Source: Cyanobium sp. FACHB-13342 (GTDB taxonomy: Bacteria > Cyanobacteriota > Cyanobacteriia > PCC-6307 > Cyanobiaceae). From it: a stretch of 64,000 nucleotides of DNA. Of the stretch, positions 58 to 11,582 are shown one piece after another. The notes under the pieces are model-generated. The model ran no database searches, was not told where the DNA came from, and saw nothing but the letters and a program-made list of their open reading frames with translations. How positions within the stretch are numbered: the stretch's first letter is position 1; the number at the start of each line of letters is the position of its first letter. The position numbers and the translations under genes are program-made. The stretch is from NCBI RefSeq assembly GCF_014697415.1, contig NZ_JACJRT010000007.1, positions 124,001 through 188,000 of the forward strand, given 5' to 3'.

Positions 58-139
58 GGGAGCGTGCCGGAATTGGTAGACGGACTCGACTCAAAATCGA
101 GCGCCTTCGGGCATGTGGGTTCGAGTCCCACCGCTCCCA
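58..139 (+). tRNA. tRNA-Leu (anticodon CAA)
   Basis: The 82-nt gene has a perfect 7-bp acceptor stem (GGGAGCG with CGCTCCC) and discriminator A. The anticodon arm CTCGA-CTCAAAA-TCGAG places CAA at positions 34-36. It has a long variable arm as expected for a class II tRNA, and a T-arm with GTTCGAGTCC. The 3' CCA is not encoded. An open frame runs through the gene into argD, but it is not the real argD start. Confidence 0.95.
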
Positions 140-180
140 TCTCGCCCATCCCCAGCTCAGGCCTGTCCGCCTCAGCCGTG

Positions 181-1389
181 ATGGACACCTATGCCCGCTT
201 CCCGATCAGCCTCACCCGGGGCCGGGGGGTGTGGGTGTGGGACAGCACGGGCAAGCGCTACCTCGACTGCGTGGCCGGCATCGCCGTCTGCACCCTGGGC
301 CACAGCGACGGGCGGATGCGGCGGGCCCTGGGCCGCCAGCTCGGCAAGCTCCAGCACGTCTCGAACCTTTACCGCATCCCCGAGCAGGAGGAGCTGGCCA
401 CCGCCCTCACGGCCCGGAGCTGCATGGATCGGGTCTTCTTCTGCAACTCCGGCGCCGAAGCCAATGAGGCCGCCATCAAGCTGGCGCGCAAGCACGGCCA
501 CACCGTCCGCGGCATTCCCACCACAGGACCTTCCGGGGAAGACCTGGCCCCCCTGATCCTCACGGCCCAGGCCAGTTTCCACGGCCGCACCCTGGCCGCC
601 GTCACCGCCACGGGCCAGCCCAAATACCACCAGGGCTTTGAGCCGATGGTGCAGGGCTTCCGCTATTTCCCTTACAACGACACCGCCGCCTTCGAAGCCC
701 TGCTGGCCACCTGCGAGGTGCAGGGTCCACGGGTGGCCGCCGTGCTGCTCGAACCGATCCAGGGCGAGGGGGGCGTGCACCCCGGCCACCGCGCCTTCTT
801 CCAACGGGTGCGGGAGCTCTGCGACGCCCACAACATCTTGCTGATCTTTGACGAGGTGCAGATCGGCGTCGGCCGCAGCGGCCAGCTCTGGGGCTACGAG
901 CAGCTGGGTGTCGAGCCCGATGCGATCACCCTGGCCAAGGGGCTGGGCGGCGGCATCCCGATCGGCGCCCTGGCGGTGAAGAGCGCAGTGGATCACTTCC
1001 GACCCGGGGAGCATGCCAGCACCTTTGGCGGCAACCCCTTCGCCTGCAGGGCCGGTCTCACGGTGCTGGCCGAGCTGGAGCGCCGCGACCTGCTCAACCA
1101 TGTGCAACGGATGGGGGGACTGCTGCAGGAGCTGCTGGCCGAACTGGTGAGCCGCCACCCCACCCTGCTGGAGGGGGTGCGGGGCTGGGGGCTGCTCCAG
1201 GGCCTGGTGCTGCGGGCCGAGGCACCGAGCGCTCCGGAGATCGTCAAGGCGGCCATGGAGCAGGGTCTGCTGCTGGTGCCGGCCGGCCCCGAAGTGGTGC
1301 GCTTCGTGCCGCCGCTGGTGATCCAACCCCACCATCTGCGCTTCGCCGTCGATCGCCTCGAGCGGGCCCTGCTCAGCCTTGGGCGTTGA
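181..1389 (+). CDS. argD: Acetylornithine aminotransferase (402 aa)
   Basis: PLP-dependent class III aminotransferase of arginine biosynthesis. It transfers an amino group from glutamate to N-acetylglutamate semialdehyde to give N-acetylornithine, in the cytosol. Visible signatures are NSGAEANEAAIKLARK near residue 90, the substrate-loop motif EPIQGEGGVHP, the PLP-binding DEVQIGVGR, and the Schiff-base lysine in LAKGLGGGIPIGAL. The ATG at 181 is chosen because the upstream in-frame extension translates the tRNA-Leu gene. The length is normal for ArgD. The stop codon lies inside an exact 18-bp tandem duplication that also supplies the start of folC, so the two genes overlap and are probably co-transcribed. 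Related class III aminotransferases (ornithine, GABA) cannot be fully excluded, but context favours ArgD. Confidence 0.92.
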   Translation: MDTYARFPISLTRGRGVWVWDSTGKRYLDCVAGIAVCTLGHSDGRMRRALGRQLGKLQHVSNLYRIPEQEELATALTARSCMDRVFFCNSGAEANEAAIKLARKHGHTVRGIPTTGPSGEDLAPLILTAQASFHGRTLAAVTATGQPKYHQGFEPMVQGFRYFPYNDTAAFEALLATCEVQGPRVAAVLLEPIQGEGGVHPGHRAFFQRVRELCDAHNILLIFDEVQIGVGRSGQLWGYEQLGVEPDAITLAKGLGGGIPIGALAVKSAVDHFRPGEHASTFGGNPFACRAGLTVLAELERRDLLNHVQRMGGLLQELLAELVSRHPTLLEGVRGWGLLQGLVLRAEAPSAPEIVKAAMEQGLLLVPAGPEVVRFVPPLVIQPHHLRFAVDRLERALLSLGR

Positions 1390-2651: not shown

Positions 2652-3173
2652 ATGTCCCCCCTCCTCGGCCGACTGGCCACCGCCCTGCGCCGGCGCAGCC
2701 TGGGCCTGGCCCTCCTGCTGCTGATCGGGCTGCTGGGGCTGGCGCCGCTGCCGGTGGCCGCCGAGTTCTCCGGGGTGGACTACACGCTCACCAACCAGAA
2801 CGAGCAGGATTTCAGTGGCCAAAACCTGGCCAACACCTCCTTCGCCGGCGCCACGGGCCGCCACGCCAACTTCCGCGGGGCCGACCTGCATGGCGCGATC
2901 CTCACCCAGGCCGCTTTCCCGGATGCCGACTTCGCCGGGGCCGACCTCAGCGGTACCCTGATGGACAAGGTGGACTTCTCCGGCGCCGACCTAACCGGGG
3001 CGGTGCTGAGCGGCGCCATAGCCTCCGGCAGCAGCTTCCGCGGCGCCACCGTCACCGATGCCGACTTCAGCGACGCCCTGATCGACCGGGTTGACCAGCG
3101 CTCCCTCTGCCGCGACGCCGAAGGCACCAACCCGGTGACCGGCGTCGACACCCGTCTCAGCCTGGGTTGCTAA
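2652..3173 (+). CDS. Exported pentapeptide-repeat protein, probably thylakoid lumen or periplasm (173 aa)
   Basis: The N-terminus has basic residues, a long hydrophobic core (LALLLLIGLLGLAPL) and a likely signal-peptidase site after VAA-EF. Residues about 50-150 are A(D/N)(L/F)XX pentapeptide repeats (for example ADLHG, ADFAG, ADLSG, ADLTG) that should fold as a right-handed quadrilateral beta-helix. Two C-terminal cysteines (SLC...LGC) may form a disulfide. Such short lumenal pentapeptide proteins are common in cyanobacteria and chloroplasts, and their function is largely unknown. The gene starts 31 bases after folC on the same strand. Its 3' end overlaps the convergent FAD-oxidase gene by 17 bases. 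Confidence 0.85.
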   Translation: MSPLLGRLATALRRRSLGLALLLLIGLLGLAPLPVAAEFSGVDYTLTNQNEQDFSGQNLANTSFAGATGRHANFRGADLHGAILTQAAFPDADFAGADLSGTLMDKVDFSGADLTGAVLSGAIASGSSFRGATVTDADFSDALIDRVDQRSLCRDAEGTNPVTGVDTRLSLGC

Positions 3174-4575
3174 GCCAGCCGCGCAGTTTGCCGGGGTTGA
3201 GCAGACCGGCGGGGTCGTAGGCGGCCTTGGCCGCCACCTGGTCGGCATCGACCACCCCCAGGCCGCCATCTTCAACGCTGACCACATGGGGGTTGAACAG
3301 CACGGCTCCCGCGGCCCGGCAGTCGGCCATCAGACGCTGCAGGGCCTCCTCACCCCGCCAACGCAGCAGCGGCAGGGCCGCCAACCGGGCTGCCCCCTGC
3401 TGCCTGACGGCCTCCAGGTGCCAGAGCAGGTCGTCCCCCCAGTCGGCCCGCAGCCGCTCCAGGCAGGCCGCTTCCGGCTGGGGCAGGAGCATCTGCAGGT
3501 AGGTCCAGCCCGGGTGCTGGGCGCGCCAGTGCAGGGTGGTGTGGTTCCAGCTGAGTTCGCGCAGGGGCAGGCGCCGGCTTTGGCCCTGGGGAGCCTGCCA
3601 GCGCAACGCCCCACCGCGGGCCGCCAGCCAGTCCGGCAGCACCTCCAGGCTGTCGGCAGCGGCGAGCAGCAGCAGCCGATGCTCCCCCGCCCCGGGCTTC
3701 GGACAGCTCGCCGGCCAGGGCAGCTGCTGGGCCACCGGCGCTTCCATCAGGCTGAGGGCATTGAGCAGCAGGGCCGTGGCGGGGAGGGCCTGGGCCGCCG
3801 CCAGGGCCTGGGCCCAGCTGTCGAAGCCCACCACCAGCTCCTGCCAGGCCCCGGCCTCCGTGGTGGGCAGGCGCAGGGCCGTGAGGATGCCGTTGGTGCC
3901 GTAGGCATGGTTGAGAGGGGCACTGGCGGCCGCGTCGAGGCGCAGCACGCGCGGCTCGGGCTCACAGGTGACCACCTCCAGGCCCAGCAGGTTGCCCGCA
4001 TCCCGCAGGAAGCCCCAGCGCAGGGAGCCGATGCCGCCGGAGCCCCCGGCAATAAAACCGCCGATGGTGGCGCTGCGGGCCGTGCTGGGCACCAGCCGCA
4101 GGGCCCGCCCCCGGGGCGCCAGCTGCTGGTCGATCGCCCCCATCAGGGCGCCCGCCTCCACCTCGATCACCCCGGTGGCGTCGTCCAGATGGCGCAGCTG
4201 GTTGAGCCCGGACAGATCCAGCACTAGGCCCCCGTGCAGCGGCACGCACTGGCCGTAGTTGCCCGTGCCGGCGCCCCGCACCGTCAGGGGCACGCCGTGG
4301 CGGGCACAGGCTCCGGCCACCAGCCGCACCTGCTCCACGCTGGAGGCCGCCGCCACCACCTGGGCCCGGCAGCCCTGCAACAGGGCCACCAGCACCGGCG
4401 AGTAGTCGTAGTAGTCGCGCGAGAGGCGCTCCAGCTCAGCAGGCGACTCCGCCCCCAGCAGCGGCAGCGCCGGATCCTCGCGCTGCAACTCCGCCGCCAG
4501 GGCGGCGATCCGGGCCTCGGGGCAGCGGTCGGGTGCGGGATCAGCCACGGGTTGGAGCAAGGGGCTCAACCCCAT
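3157..4575 (-). CDS. FAD-binding oxidase of the GlcD / lactate dehydrogenase type (472 aa)
   Basis: A PP-loop (FAD_binding_4) flavoprotein. The FAD-binding region TVRGAGTGNYGQCVPLHGG is followed by LVLDLSGLNQ and a second nucleotide-contacting stretch, GGFIAGGSGGIGSLRWG. The C-terminal FAD-linked oxidase domain ends with VAAKAAYDPAGLLNPGK, the typical closing motif of glycolate, D-lactate and related 2-hydroxyacid oxidases. The substrate cannot be read from sequence. The ATG at 4575 is used rather than a far-upstream start, because that extension is antisense to the neighbouring amidohydrolase in another frame. The start overlaps the amidohydrolase stop by 10 bases, implying an operon with it and with the DUF4359 gene. 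The 3' end overlaps the convergent pentapeptide gene. Confidence 0.85.
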   Translation of the reverse strand: MGLSPLLQPVADPAPDRCPEARIAALAAELQREDPALPLLGAESPAELERLSRDYYDYSPVLVALLQGCRAQVVAAASSVEQVRLVAGACARHGVPLTVRGAGTGNYGQCVPLHGGLVLDLSGLNQLRHLDDATGVIEVEAGALMGAIDQQLAPRGRALRLVPSTARSATIGGFIAGGSGGIGSLRWGFLRDAGNLLGLEVVTCEPEPRVLRLDAAASAPLNHAYGTNGILTALRLPTTEAGAWQELVVGFDSWAQALAAAQALPATALLLNALSLMEAPVAQQLPWPASCPKPGAGEHRLLLLAAADSLEVLPDWLAARGGALRWQAPQGQSRRLPLRELSWNHTTLHWRAQHPGWTYLQMLLPQPEAACLERLRADWGDDLLWHLEAVRQQGAARLAALPLLRWRGEEALQRLMADCRAAGAVLFNPHVVSVEDGGLGVVDADQVAAKAAYDPAGLLNPGKLRGWLSNPG

Positions 4576-5861
4576 GGAAGCAGCAGGGCCGAGGGCTGCT
4601 CGGCCTCGGGGGGCGGCAGCCACTGGCCGGCGCGCAGCACCCGCCGCTGGGGGGGCCGGGCCAGCAGCTCGCCCCAGGTGCCCGCGCCCAGGAGCACCAG
4701 GTCGGCCGGTCCGCCGACGCGCAGCACCCCATCCCAGGCCAGATCCAGCACGGCTGCTGCCGCCGTGCTGAATGGGGCCAGACCGAGGCGCTGCCAGGGC
4801 ATCAGCTGGCAGAGCGGCGCCGACCAGCGCAGCAGCTCCACCGGATCGAAATCGCCGCCCGGATACCAGGGGTCCTGCACATTGTCGCCGCCGAGGGCCA
4901 GCCGAACCCCCGCCCGCTGCAGGCTGCGAATCGGCGCCAGGGGCCGGCGGCAAGGGGTGCGGCCAGCGGCGCGCGCCAACAGCCAGAAGTTGGTGGTGGG
5001 CAGGGCCACCACCGCAATGTCCGCCGCGGCCAGTCGCTCGGCCAGCCGGTCGCAGGCCCGGGAAGGCAGCAGGGCCATGCTGCTGGCGTGGCTGCAGGTG
5101 ATGGGCACGGCCCGGCGCTGCTCGAGGGCCCCGCGGACCACCAGATCCACGCCGACTCCGGGATGGGCGTCGGATTCATCCACATGCAGATCCACGCCAC
5201 AGCCGAGGCGCTCGGCCAGATCGAGCAGGGCCAGCAGGGCCTCCCGGTCGGCGGCGCGGCGGGACCGGCCCTGGCCATAGGGAGGACCGATCACACCGCC
5301 GAGCAATCCCCCGGCAGCGGCCACCCGCCGGGCCAGGGCCTCCCCTTCCGGACAAAGCCAATGGGCCATCGGCGCCAGGGCCACCAGCTGCAGCTCCACC
5401 CGGCCGCTCCAGCGCTGGCGGGCCTCCAGCAGGGCGTCCCAGCTGGGCTGGGCCCCCGGCCCCACGCTGTCCACATGGCTGCGGATCGCCCGCACGCCGT
5501 TGCGCCAGGCCCGCTCAAGGGCCCGGCCGGCCCGTTCCGCCACCTGGTCGGCGGTGCGTTCGGCATACTCCCGCTGGTTGGCCGCCAGGGCCGCCGCCAT
5601 GGTGCCCTGCCGATTCGGGAAGGCATCGCCGCTGAAGGCCTTGTCGAGGTGGGCGTGGGGCTCCACCAAAGGGGTGAGGGCCAGCGGCAGGGCCTGCCCC
5701 GCGTCGGGAGCTCGCGATGCCAAGGGCTCGATCGCGGCGATGGAGGCCCCGGCCACGCTGATGCGCAGCGGCACCAGGCCATCGGCGTTGGCGCCAAAGC
5801 CACTCCCCAAACGGGGATCCAGCAGTCCCCGGGGCAGGCGCAGGTCCAGAGCAAGGGTCAC
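4566..5861 (-). CDS. Amidohydrolase related to cytosine deaminase (431 aa)
   Basis: A metal-dependent TIM-barrel hydrolase. The metal-binding motif PHAHLDKAF (HxH) is near residue 70, followed by the strand motif IRSHVDS, VDLHVDESD, the histidine-bearing ITCSHASSM, and the catalytic-aspartate strand GGDNVQDPWYPGG. These match the CodA/TrzN-like branch, which deaminates or hydrolyses cyclic amides such as cytosine, creatinine or isocytosine. The true substrate is not predictable here. The start overlaps the upstream DUF4359 gene by 4 bases (ATGA), so the genes form a translationally coupled operon. An FAD oxidase next to an amidohydrolase could suggest degradation of an N-heterocycle or hydantoin-like compound, but this is only inference. 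Confidence 0.82.
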   Translation of the reverse strand: MTLALDLRLPRGLLDPRLGSGFGANADGLVPLRISVAGASIAAIEPLASRAPDAGQALPLALTPLVEPHAHLDKAFSGDAFPNRQGTMAAALAANQREYAERTADQVAERAGRALERAWRNGVRAIRSHVDSVGPGAQPSWDALLEARQRWSGRVELQLVALAPMAHWLCPEGEALARRVAAAGGLLGGVIGPPYGQGRSRRAADREALLALLDLAERLGCGVDLHVDESDAHPGVGVDLVVRGALEQRRAVPITCSHASSMALLPSRACDRLAERLAAADIAVVALPTTNFWLLARAAGRTPCRRPLAPIRSLQRAGVRLALGGDNVQDPWYPGGDFDPVELLRWSAPLCQLMPWQRLGLAPFSTAAAAVLDLAWDGVLRVGGPADLVLLGAGTWGELLARPPQRRVLRAGQWLPPPEAEQPSALLLPWG

Positions 5862-6759: not shown

Positions 6760-7827
6760 TCAAACGGCCACCAGGGCATCCAGCAGGGGAGCGGCCCCCT
6801 GCCGCACCGGGTCGGCACAGGGCAGGCCGGTCTCCGCGGCCGTGGACACCAGGGCGGCACTGGCTGCCGCGCTGGAGAGCCGGGCGGTGTTGAGTGCCAC
6901 GGCCCGCACCCGCGGCCGCAGGCCATCGGGGCGGGCCAGGGCGGCCAGGGACTCCAGCGCCCCAATCAGCTCCGGCAGGGGGGCGATCGGCACCGGAGCC
7001 GCCCCCGGCCGGGTGCGCACATGGGTCTGGCCGGCCCGATGCACCAACAGCAAATCGGTGGGTTGGCTGCCGCGCAGCAAGGGCAGGGTGGCGGTGGAGC
7101 CCGGATGGCAGAGGGATCCCTGGCCCTCCACCAGCACGAGCGTCTGCGGCCCAGCCCCAGCCGCGGCCGCCAGCACCGCCGCCTCCACCGCGCCGGCGGC
7201 GTAATCCACCCGCACCGCATCGAGGGCCACCCCGCTGCCGGCGATCAGGATCCCCGCCTGGCCCGTGCCCACAAAACGGGCATCCAGGCCCCGACGGCGG
7301 GCCTCGGCCTGCAGCTCGAGGCAGGCGCTCATCTTGCCCACGGCCATGTCGGAGCCCACCGCCAGCAGCCGCCGGCAGGGCAGGGCGGCCGCCCGGGCGG
7401 TGGCCACCTCCAGCCCCTCGGGCTCCCGGCGCAGGTCCCAGATCCACTGGCCGGGCCGAAGCGGAATGGCGGCAAACTCCGGGTCGTCAGCCAGCCGGCC
7501 GTGCAGGCCACTGGCCAGGCTCAGCCCCGCCTGCAGCGCGGCCCGCACATCGGCCCGCATCCCCTGCGGCAACCGGCCGCCGGAGGGGGCCAGCCCCACC
7601 ACGGCCACCGCGGGGCCGTAGGCCAGGGCCGCCGCCATGTCGGCCACCACCGGAACGGCGCGATCGATGCCGGTGGTGGCCTTCAGATCGGCGCCAGCGA
7701 AGGCCGGATCGATCACCGCCACGATCGGCCCGGAGCGGTAGCGCAGCATGGCCAGGCCGGTCTTGCCGGACAGGTCGTCGAGACCGCCGTGCTGCAGCAG
7801 CACGATCGGAGCGGACGCGCTCAACAC
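6760..7827 (-). CDS. dgcN: DUF1611 protein, DgcN-like D-glutamate N-acetyltransferase (355 aa)
   Basis: It has the two-domain DUF1611 layout: an N-terminal Rossmann-like part (VIDPAFAGADLKATTGIDRAV) and a C-terminal P-loop-like NTPase-fold part with VGSDMAVGKMSACLEL near residue 200, then VGTGQAGILIAGSGVALDAVR and LVEGQGSLCHPG. From memory of the literature, members named DgcN acetylate D-glutamate and act with DgcA, an enolase-superfamily enzyme that epimerises N-acetyl-D-glutamate to the L form. The gene immediately upstream here is of that superfamily and overlaps this gene by 7 bases, which supports that reading. Related DUF1611 proteins have other or unknown roles, so the substrate is inferred from context. 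The 3' end lies 6 bases from the tRNA-His terminator. Confidence 0.72.
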   Translation of the reverse strand: MLSASAPIVLLQHGGLDDLSGKTGLAMLRYRSGPIVAVIDPAFAGADLKATTGIDRAVPVVADMAAALAYGPAVAVVGLAPSGGRLPQGMRADVRAALQAGLSLASGLHGRLADDPEFAAIPLRPGQWIWDLRREPEGLEVATARAAALPCRRLLAVGSDMAVGKMSACLELQAEARRRGLDARFVGTGQAGILIAGSGVALDAVRVDYAAGAVEAAVLAAAAGAGPQTLVLVEGQGSLCHPGSTATLPLLRGSQPTDLLLVHRAGQTHVRTRPGAAPVPIAPLPELIGALESLAALARPDGLRPRVRAVALNTARLSSAAASAALVSTAAETGLPCADPVRQGAAPLLDALVAV

Positions 7828-8921
7828 GCTCGATCGCCTCCCAGGCCGGCGTCATGAGCAATCCCCAGGCCGGGGCCAGGGGGCGGCACCAGCCCATCCC
7901 CCGCCAGGTTCAGCCCGGTGAAGGGGTCGTCCACCAGGTTGAGGTGGCTGTCGAGATCGGGCCAGGTCACCAGGGGCAGCAGCTGGGCAGCGGCACCGTT
8001 GAGCAGGGCGCCATCGGAGTAGCACCCCACCATCACCCCCAACCCCAACCGCCGGGCCACCTGGGCCATCAGCCAAGCCTCGGCAAGGCCACCGCTTTTG
8101 AGCAGTTTGATGTTGATGCCATCCACGTAGGGGGCGAGCCGCACCAGATCGGCCAGGTTCCAGCAGCTCTCGTCGGCCACCAACGGCATCGGACAGTCGA
8201 GCTCCAGGGCCTCAAAGCCGGCCGTATCGAGCTGCTCATCCAGCAGCGGCGCCAGGGGCTGCTCCAGCAGCACCACCCCAGCGCGCTCCAGGGGATCCAG
8301 CATGGCCCGGGCCGTGCCCAGATCCCAGCCGCCATTGGCATCCACCTGCAGCTCACAGGCCCCTCCGGTGCTCTGGCGCCGCTGCTCCAGGGCCGCGGCC
8401 ACGGCGGCCAGCAGGGCCAGGTCGTGGGCCACCCCCTCGGGGCTCCCCAACTTGAGCTTGATCCGGGTGGCAGGCAGCTGCAGCCACCAGCGCTCGAGCC
8501 GCGCCAGGACAGCCTCGGGGGGGCCTAAGCCAAGGGTCACGCTGGTGGCGACACAGGCCCCCGGATCCAGCCCCCAGAGCCGGTGCAGCGGCTGGTTCAA
8601 CCGCTTGCCCCACCAGTCGTGCAGGGCCAGATCGAGGCCACAGCGGGCCGGCGGGCTGAGGGCCGCCAGCAGGGGCTCCAGGGCCTGAAGGGGCTGGGGT
8701 GCCAGGGCCTCCAGCTGGGGGGCCACCGCCTCCAGCTCCGCCGCAACGGCATCGGTGGTGTACTGGCGGTGGCCGGTGTCGAAGCCGCCGGTCTCGCCGA
8801 TGCCCGTGAGCCCGTCGTGCTCCAGACTCACCAGCAGGTGCTCCACCGCCGCCGTCGTGCCGCGGCTGATGGCCAGGGGCACGGCCTTGGTGAGCTGAAA
8901 GCGTTGCAGGCGAAGCTGCAT
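7821..8921 (-). CDS. Enolase-superfamily epimerase: dipeptide (L-Ala-D/L-Glu) epimerase or DgcA-type N-acetyl-D-glutamate racemase (366 aa)
   Basis: A mandelate racemase / muconate-lactonising enzyme fold. The capping-domain motif ISRGTT is near residue 19. The catalytic KxK is in TRIKLKLG, and the three metal ligands are in VDANGGW (Asp), LLEQPLAPL (Glu) and VADES (Asp). The second catalytic lysine is in [10 protein letters not shown], and the barrel end is [11 protein letters not shown]. All catalytic residues of a 1,1-proton-transfer epimerase are present. The family includes L-Ala-D/L-Glu epimerase (murein peptide recycling) and the DgcA N-acetyl-D-glutamate racemase. The partner DUF1611 gene directly downstream favours the latter, but both would channel peptidoglycan-derived D-Glu. 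The minus-strand operon starts here, back-to-back with miaB. Confidence 0.78.
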
Positions 8922-10439: not shown

Positions 10440-10469
10440 GCTTTGGCCCCCGGGGCCCTTCCGGCCGGC

Positions 10470-11582
10470 ATGACCCGCTCCCCCCTTCCCGTTGGCCTGA
10501 TCTTCGGGGGGGCCTCCGGTGAGCACGCCGTCTCGATCCGCTCGGCAGCCACCGTGGCCGCCGCCGTGCGCCATGCCGACAACGCCGGCCGCTACGACCT
10601 GCGCTGCTTCTACATCGATCCCGAAGGGCGCTGGTGGGGCTCGGACGTGGCCGAAGCCGTGCTGGAGCAGGGCACCCCGGTGCGGCCTGAGCAACTGCCC
10701 CAGCCCCTGCCCGAACCGGGCTTCCGCGGCTTCCCGGCCGGAGCTCTCGAGGTGGCGATCTGGCTGCCGGTGCTGCACGGTCCCAACGGGGAAGACGGCA
10801 CGATCCAGGGGCTGTTCACCCTGATGCAGGTGCCCTTTGTGGGCTCGGGCGTGCTGGGCTCGGCCGTGGGCATGGACAAGCAGGCCATGAAGGCCGCCTT
10901 CGCCGCCGCGGGGTTGCCCCAGGTGCCCTACGCCTGCGCCAGCGCCAGCCAGGTGGCCCAGGATCCGGATGCCCTGCTTGATCGGCTGGAGGCCCAGCTG
11001 GGCTATCCCTGCTTCGTGAAACCGGCCAACCTGGGCTCCTCGGTGGGGATCAGCAAAGCCACCGACCGGGCCAGCCTGCTGGCGGGTCTGCAGACCGCCG
11101 CCGCCCTGGATCCGCGGCTGGTGATCGAACAGGGGGTGACGGCCCGGGAGCTGGAGTGCGCCGTGCGCGGTGGCGGCCACCAACCCCTGCAGGCCTCCGT
11201 ATTGGGGGAAATCTGCTTCGACGCCGACTGGTACGACTACGACACCAAATACAGCGAGGGCAAAAGCCACACGGTGATTCCGGCCGTGGTGCCCGAAGCG
11301 ATTGCCGAGCGGGCCCGGGCCATGGCGATCCAGGCCTGTGAAGCGGTGGCCGCCATGGGGCTCTCCCGGGTGGATTTCTTCTACAGCGAGGCCAGCCCAG
11401 GCCACCCCAACGGCGAGCTCTGGCTCAATGAGATCAACACCCTGCCGGGGTTCACCAGTCAGAGCATGTACCCCATGCTGTGGGCCGCCTCCGGTGTGCC
11501 CCTGCCGATCTTGGTGCGCGAATTGCTGGAAGGGGCCCGAGAATGGCACCAGGCATCACTCCTGGGAGGCCCTTCGGCATGA
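10470..11582 (+). CDS. ddl: D-alanine--D-alanine ligase (370 aa)
   Basis: An ATP-grasp enzyme that makes D-Ala-D-Ala for peptidoglycan. The N-terminal motif [15 protein letters not shown] includes the catalytic Glu and Ser region. The central [15 protein letters not shown] contacts ATP, and the C-terminal [19 protein letters not shown] carries the Mg2+ ligands and product-binding residues. An upstream TTG in frame exists, but the ATG at 10470 matches the family N-terminus. The Tyr-Ser-Lys region ([14 protein letters not shown]) suggests D-Ala rather than D-Lac or D-Ser specificity. The stop overlaps the following small gene by 4 bases (ATGA). It heads a ddl / small membrane protein / ftsQ / ftsZ cluster. 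Confidence 0.95.

Follow-up and report, generated by a model that had tools for sequence, protein, structure and literature searches.

A DUF1611 gene overlapping an enolase-superfamily epimerase gene in Cyanobium: a probable D-glutamate salvage pair of divergent DgcN–DgcA type

The gene pair

The DNA analysed here (the window) is a stretch of 64,000 nucleotides from Cyanobium sp. FACHB-13342, whose genome is assembled in 18 contigs (2.37 Mb, 99% complete). On the reverse strand it carries two overlapping genes, the first coding for an enolase-superfamily epimerase and the second for a DUF1611 protein. They most likely represent a divergent version of the recycling route known from marine bacteria, in which the enzymes are DgcN and DgcA. 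The features of the pair are as follows.

7821..8921, reverse strand: enolase-superfamily epimerase (DgcA-like or dipeptide-epimerase-like), 366 aa, ATG start, first gene of the pair
6760..7827, reverse strand: DUF1611 protein (DgcN-like, putative D-glutamate N-acetyltransferase), 355 aa, GTG start, second gene
7821..7827, reverse strand: overlap of the two genes, 7 bp, from the list of open reading frames (ORFs)
8862..8864, reverse strand: epimerase R20 codon (SRG), common to the DgcA rows and the E. coli L-Ala-D/L-Glu epimerase (AEE)
8451..8459, reverse strand: epimerase K155-x-K157, presumed acid/base motif, from the alignment
7950..7958, reverse strand: epimerase D322-x-D324 motif, from the alignment
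7333..7356, reverse strand: DUF1611 P-loop, residues 158-165 (G-x-D-x3-G-K), kept in every group compared
7204..7206, reverse strand: DUF1611 codon 208, Asp, from the alignment

An earlier reading of this DNA (the sequence-only reading) had described a DUF1611 gene overlapping the gene of an epimerase with its catalytic residues, and the ORFs, the Pfam matches and the alignment all agree with it. The DUF1611 protein has both the N and the C domain of its family (PF07755, 2.7e-63, and PF17396, 7.1e-26), and all 30 positions conserved over four epimerase-linked DUF1611 groups are present in it, D208 included. The epimerase matches PF13378 (7.8e-27) and PF02746 (1.7e-10) and has the catalytic residues of the muconate-lactonising subgroup: K155-x-K157, D194, E220, D250, K272, D322-x-D324 and R20. 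With the KxK motif, the three acidic metal ligands and the second-side lysine, the enolase-superfamily set is complete. We take K155-x-K157 to be the acid/base motif and R20 to serve the glutamate side chain.

The active-site comparison with DgcA and AEE suggested by the sequence-only reading found the residues in place and left the substrates unseparated. The D-x-D motif and the S-R-G are common to DgcA, the dipeptide epimerases and the window protein, and these sites therefore cannot separate substrates; judged from the alignment, the choice between N-acetyl-D-Glu and L-Ala-D/L-Glu is not settled by the catalytic residues. Neither the D-x-D motif nor R20 can serve as proof of a dipeptide epimerase, both being kept in the DgcA sequences examined. 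With the L-Ala-D/L-Glu epimerase model (NF011708) the window epimerase scores 108.2 bits, against an equivalog cut-off of 343.

Co-occurrence of the two genes in the phylum

The two families were searched for in 194 genomes of the phylum. At the limits set for strong matches (E<1e-60 for the epimerase and E<1e-80 for the DUF1611 protein), the epimerase is found in 52 genomes and the DUF1611 protein in the identical 52, neither occurring alone (Fisher value 1.6e-48, which ignores shared ancestry). With looser limits (1e-30 and 1e-50), 55 genomes contain both genes and one, G107, the epimerase only. The genes are adjacent (<500 bp), on one strand and with the epimerase first in 44 of the 52 genomes, and overlap or near-abutment is common among relatives. 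Three genomes have them 1-2 kb apart in unchanged order. They are separate in the remaining five, at a distance of 2.36 Mb in one and on different contigs in four, which are draft assemblies and do not prove a real distance. That genomes with separated genes still retain both speaks most strongly for a joint function. Three more genomes, of the same phylum and outside the class, have a pair that is more distant and reversed, with the DUF1611 gene first.

Structural matches

AlphaFold models of the two proteins have pLDDT (predicted local distance difference test) values of 79.5 for the DUF1611 protein and 78.3 for the epimerase, the latter dropping to low values in roughly the final 30 residues. 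The DUF1611 model matches the N-acetyltransferase DgcN-25328 (7xrj) over its full length (Z 34.3, root-mean-square deviation (rmsd) 3.7, 328 residues); it also matches Anabaena 2obn (Z 41.6, rmsd 3.0, 344 residues) and, at full length, Thermotoga 2g0t (Z 33.3). The next matches have Z of about 13, cover the C-terminal half only and are P-loop proteins (CTP synthetase, signal recognition particle GTPases and dethiobiotin synthetase). The epimerase model has matches throughout the enolase superfamily, among them an Agrobacterium dipeptide-epimerase homologue (Z 38.3, structure search), dipeptide epimerases (Z about 35-37) and N-acylamino-acid racemases (about 34-35). The modelled fold by itself selects no substrate.

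Phylogeny of the epimerases and the DUF1611 proteins

The epimerase tree has 49 rows, and its bootstrap is not fully settled. DgcA is not separable in it from E. coli YcjG, an L-Ala-D/L-Glu epimerase (Pantoea DgcA + YcjG, 95/79). The DUF1611-linked halobacterial epimerases lie on the other main branch, grouped with enzymes of the Thermotoga and Bacillus types (94/91, and 98/96 within the group). In this tree, the partners of DUF1611 belong to at least two epimerase branches, which may reflect either independent recruitment or the loss of DUF1611 in other lineages.

In the DUF1611 tree (60 rows), the epimerase-partnered proteins form three deep groups: the DgcN of Pseudomonadota, a cyanobacterial group with a sister lineage, and Halobacteria. 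The proteins partnered with a pyridoxal 5'-phosphate (PLP) racemase form, with one Vibrio protein that has no racemase, one group (91/85, not starred) whose neighbours are epimerase-partnered. Beside this group branches the DUF1611 protein of locus L045 (5197-7343, genome G048), which has an enolase-type epimerase as partner and Asp at position 208. It sits on a long branch and is possibly an intermediate of a switch of partner.

Proposed function and its alternatives

The pair is real and conserved, and it works most likely in the manner of DgcN and DgcA. This reading is supported by DgcN and DgcA being the top-ranked NCBIfam models, the fold match to DgcN-25328, the co-occurrence of the genes, the 7-bp overlap also annotated between dgcN and dgcA of Pseudoalteromonas CF6-2, the three deep groups of epimerase-partnered DUF1611 proteins and the conserved residues. 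The single epimerase match at 1e-10, ArgJ, the one glutamate racemase and the one M20 match of the genome are counted in its favour as well. We consider it probable that the pair carries out a two-step salvage of D-glutamate of the DgcN-DgcA type. The DUF1611 protein would acetylate D-glutamate to N-acetyl-D-glutamate, and the epimerase would invert the alpha carbon to give N-acetyl-L-glutamate. This product could then join the arginine pathway (ArgJ and ArgD are present) or lose its acetyl group to yield L-glutamate, an M20 amidohydrolase being one candidate for this step. The inferred parts of the route are its substrates, its acetyl donor and its direction, the derivation of the D-glutamate from peptidoglycan, and what becomes of the product.

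Feeding of arginine synthesis by the pair is possible: ArgJ was found in the genome by profile search and argD lies in the window. The only PF01546 (M20) match of the genome is an amidohydrolase of the TIGR01891 subfamily, which could deacetylate N-acetyl-L-glutamate to L-glutamate instead. Also in favour of salvage, a halobacterial relative has an NlpC/P60 endopeptidase containing SH3 domains as its neighbour, which is a wall-peptide setting. The supply of cyanophycin precursors, also put forward in the sequence-only reading, is not supported in this organism, as no cyanophycin synthetase (TIGR02068) match was found at 1e-100 in the 99% complete genome, and seven of the 52 genomes with the pair also have none. 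The synthetase gene cphA occurs in 78 of the 194 genomes and in 45 of those 52; lineage and genome size confound these counts, and no association is drawn from them.

Several observations weigh against D-glutamate salvage by this pair. The best NCBIfam model for the DUF1611 protein is DgcN, with 218.6 bits against an equivalog cut-off of 480 (NF041892), and that for the epimerase is the N-acetyl-D-Glu racemase DgcA, with 158.2 bits against a cut-off of 400 (NF042940). The corresponding proteins of Pseudoalteromonas CF6-2 exceed their own cut-offs (493.4 and 412 bits). Both cut-offs being missed, neither window protein is by that test a member of DgcN or DgcA, and we do not assign the pair to these families. 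The epimerase pocket differs from that of DgcA because GCYSD..L.N.AA replaces the GCMVG.SLAMAPA of the DgcA rows, and chloromuconate and muconate enzymes match the epimerase model at Z 37-38 (maximum 38.0). In the tree, the cyanobacterial epimerases are a clade of their own (100/100), joined to the group of DgcA and YcjG at 92/86 (not starred). Five genomes have an epimerase match of lower strength and none to DUF1611, namely G107 (1.9e-37), G060 (4.7e-15), G101 (5.1e-13), G058 (5.2e-11) and G195 (7.2e-11); the G107 enzyme groups with that of B. thetaiotaomicron (91/81). Free D-glutamate might in principle be racemised without any acetylation by the single glutamate racemase of the genome (TIGR00067, 208.3 bits against a cut-off of 146.7). 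In 24 distant cyanobacterial loci, the families found near the pair at least twice include none for wall recycling. No NtcA-type site (GTAN8TAC) was found within about 300 bp upstream, with starts placed by rule, in any of 40 loci (35 of the phylum and five from plasmids of other organisms), about 2.3 being expected by shuffling; control of the pair by NtcA is rejected on this count.

A rather less probable explanation is that the epimerase is a genuine dipeptide epimerase (L-Ala-D/L-Glu) serving the recycling of wall peptides, the DUF1611 protein acting on a dipeptide or on some other compound derived from the wall. The nearest solved sequence to the epimerase is 3iji, a dipeptide epimerase of B. 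thetaiotaomicron (2.9e-38), the D-x-D motif and R20 are retained, and the Cyanobium genome has a single epimerase match at 1e-10. A Halorussus plasmid has an NlpC/P60 endopeptidase gene with those of DUF1611 and a dipeptide epimerase, and two sphingomonad plasmids combine a dipeptide epimerase, a peptide transporter, a TonB receptor and DUF1611. However, DgcA sequences have the same motifs, which thus do not favour the dipeptide, and none of the 194 genomes has a strong epimerase match without DUF1611, which is unexpected if the epimerase acts alone as in E. coli.

It is unlikely that the pair performs the same acetylation and epimerization on a D-amino acid other than glutamate. The private pocket motif of the cyanobacterial epimerases would suit such a substrate, as would the identity of only 31-38% between the window proteins and the aligned Rhodobacterales DgcN and DgcA rows, but R20 is common to the DgcA rows and D208 to all epimerase-linked groups examined. 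Very improbable is a main role in providing arginine synthesis with N-acetyl-L-glutamate free of feedback control, salvage coming second: the predicted product is an arginine intermediate and ArgJ and ArgD are present, but a pair found in only 52 of the 194 genomes is no general entry enzyme, ArgJ was seen near it in one locus only (L056, about 2.3 kb upstream on the opposite strand), and no NtcA-type site precedes it.

The route of D-glutamate salvage has so far been known, to our knowledge, from marine Proteobacteria and halophilic archaea. If the proposed function is correct, a divergent form of it is present in 52 of the 194 genomes sampled from the phylum, and wall turnover would be tied to the pool of an arginine intermediate in phototrophs.

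A second DUF1611 gene with a PLP racemase

The same genome contains a second DUF1611 gene (G000:C17, L032 6465-7634), here called type B, which overlaps the gene of a fold-III PLP racemase (L032 5386-6468). This racemase matches PF01168, and its best NCBIfam model is ornithine racemase (295 of 480 bits). At 1e-30 the PLP racemase is found in four of the 194 genomes, and the same four have the type-B DUF1611 protein (E<1e-90), adjacent in each case. The module is also present on Roseobacter and Vibrio plasmids, one Vibrio plasmid carrying the type-B DUF1611 gene without the racemase.

Among the 30 conserved positions compared, position 208 is Asp in the four epimerase-linked groups, and each of the 15 PLP-linked rows has Gln there. 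Position 155 is Leu in the former and Ala in the 15 PLP-linked rows, but the L045 protein also has Ala. The count at position 208 was extended to 172 DUF1611 sequences, one per distinct 120-residue core, a racemase gene within 2.5 kb being taken as adjacent; ten proteins were read by eye, all with Asp. Asp is present in 134 of 134 epimerase-adjacent sequences and Gln in 21 of 21 adjacent to a PLP racemase, and those with neither kind of racemase nearby comprise 16 with Asp and one with Gln. These counts are not independent, the PLP-partnered proteins forming one group of the tree. This split points to a change of racemase partner by DUF1611, along which the candidate acceptor-site residue 208 would have changed. 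Position 208 presumably contacts the acceptor.

The amine must be free for a PLP racemase and acylated for an enolase-type one; the order of the steps should therefore differ between the modules. The epimerase-partnered modules would acetylate and then epimerize, whereas the PLP-partnered module would racemize and then acetylate, because its racemase needs the free amine. We suggest, tentatively and with doubt prevailing, that DUF1611 proteins act as exchangeable modules for the N-acylation of D-amino acids, pairing with any racemase at hand (from at least two epimerase branches, and once of the PLP type). The change from Asp to Gln at 208 would then reflect a change of acceptor or direction, and the type-B module would make N-acylated D-amino acids rather than serve salvage. 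If so, residue 208 predicts the kind of racemase that partners a DUF1611 protein, and the type-B module is a route to N-acylated D-amino acids not described in the papers that could be searched. No description of the cyanobacterial pair or of the PLP module was recognized in the literature searched, a search outside which most subscription papers lie.

A Band-7/SPFH (HflC-like) gene directly follows the type-B module in seven genomes of the window genus, including that of the window (L032 4551-5360; L068/L022, L070/L026, L024, L025, L027 and L030; further loci of this observation are L162 5632-7679 and L160 8588-10122). It was not found beside the module in G014, G015, G020 and G033. The genes hflK/hflC adjoin the type-B DUF1611 gene on a Vibrio plasmid and lie about 2 kb away from it on a Ruegeria plasmid.

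Genomic surroundings

Two genes of the window provide the context of the pair.

64..1389, forward strand: argD, acetylornithine aminotransferase (TIGR00707, 471 bits, cut-off 410)
10443..11582, forward strand: ddl, D-alanine--D-alanine ligase, on the miaB-ddl-ftsZ side, divergent from the pair

The presence of argD and ddl in the window, as previously claimed, is thereby confirmed. In the 15 pair loci of the genus and family, miaB and ddl lie on one side of the pair in all 15, and genes for an amidohydrolase, an oxidase using flavin adenine dinucleotide (FAD) and a DUF4359 protein on the other side in 14. Among the more distant loci compared, only L057 (G046) has miaB-ddl-ftsZ beside the pair. 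A family scan confirmed the identities of MiaB and FtsZ; for the ORF labelled FtsQ, a label of our own, the NCBIfam scan was empty at 1e-10. In the 24 distant cyanobacterial loci (119 ORFs, crudely picked) none of the 160 neighbour families occurs in more than four members. A scan for consensus promoters and terminators found none.

The window codes at 3157-5861 (reverse strand) for a cytosine-deaminase-like amidohydrolase followed by a FAD-linked oxidase, the two genes that adjoin the pair in 14 of the 15 loci; the amidohydrolase has no Pfam match at 0.001 and scores 248.6 of 403 bits with NCBIfam PRK07583. Chlorophyll synthase is also encoded in the window, which agrees, as does the close Anabaena homologue 2obn, with a cyanobacterial source. 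Elsewhere in the genome (L189 1312-3365), the gene of the glutamate racemase overlaps the end of the ORF before it, which we read tentatively as an N-acetylmuramoyl-L-alanine amidase.

DUF1611 genes on plasmids and in phages

On a plasmid of Halorussus halophilus (L163 3417-6613), genes for an NlpC/P60 endopeptidase with SH3 domains, a DUF1611 protein and a dipeptide epimerase stand in a row, near a helix-turn-helix gene, a prolyl oligopeptidase gene and dacB; the cluster looks like one for the use of wall peptides by an archaeon. A Haladaptatus halobius plasmid (L155 2474-5835) has a DUF1611 gene between two genes for dipeptide epimerases whose positions in the tree are far apart. Of 100 plasmid records with DUF1611 or dgcN matches, 20 are from Klebsiella and 28 are typed as conjugative; Vibrio, Sinorhizobium and Pantoea plasmids are also among them.

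Large Dickeya and Erwinia phages also have DUF1611 genes (L159 3767-5684 and L167 3267-4343), and 34 phage records were matched. No racemase was recognized beside the DUF1611 gene in these two, the phage loci examined. The gene of L159 adjoins an Asn-synthase-like gene, and the phage DUF1611 protein has Asp at 208.

Comparison with known systems

A passage of PMC11747546 states that two enzymes could convert D-glutamate to N-acetyl-L-glutamate (EC 2.3.1.312 and 5.1.1.25), and the DgcN-DgcA route is described in Shewanella in a passage of PMC10845958. AEE genes in cyanobacteria are mentioned in a passage of PMC3605383, and the epimerase as such had therefore been noticed earlier.

The sequence-only reading had likened the locus to the DgcN/DgcA arrangement. 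What holds is the presence of the same two families, adjacent, co-occurring in 52 of 52 genomes and overlapping by 7 bp; the gene order is reversed and the equivalog cut-offs are missed. A plasmid-collection record of CF6-2, reportedly the strain of the original DgcN/DgcA work, has dgcR, dgcN and dgcA in that order, with an annotated overlap of dgcN and dgcA of 7 bp, as in the window. In the best 80 DgcN loci, an epimerase ORF lies downstream in 78 (one cut by the end of the locus); the two in which none was found end just past dgcN. The window pair resembles the DgcN-DgcA of CF6-2 and Rhodobacterales in its conserved residues and in the full-length fold match of its DUF1611 protein (Z 34.3). 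It differs in having the epimerase rather than dgcN first, in scores far under the equivalog cut-offs, in an epimerase clade apart from DgcA, in a divergent miaB where CF6-2 has dgcR, and in its phototrophic host.

With L-Ala-D/L-Glu epimerases the epimerase shares the fold (E. coli 1jpd, Z 34.9; B. subtilis 1jpm, 35.4; B. thetaiotaomicron 3iji, 36.4), the catalytic residues and the D-x-D motif; unlike them, the window type is accompanied by a DUF1611 protein in 52 of 52 genomes and has the GCYSD motif. The type-B module, with its ornithine/alanine-type PLP racemase, is similar in that a DUF1611 gene adjoins a racemase gene, but this racemase is not homologous to the epimerase and Gln stands where the window protein has Asp208. 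The DUF1611 protein is most similar in fold (Z 41.6) to 2obn (Ava_3511 of Anabaena variabilis), a structural-genomics entry without a stated function, which matches it over residues 7-353 (E 9.4e-105), with an Asp aligned to D208; if the proposed function is correct, 2obn gains a role that can be tested.

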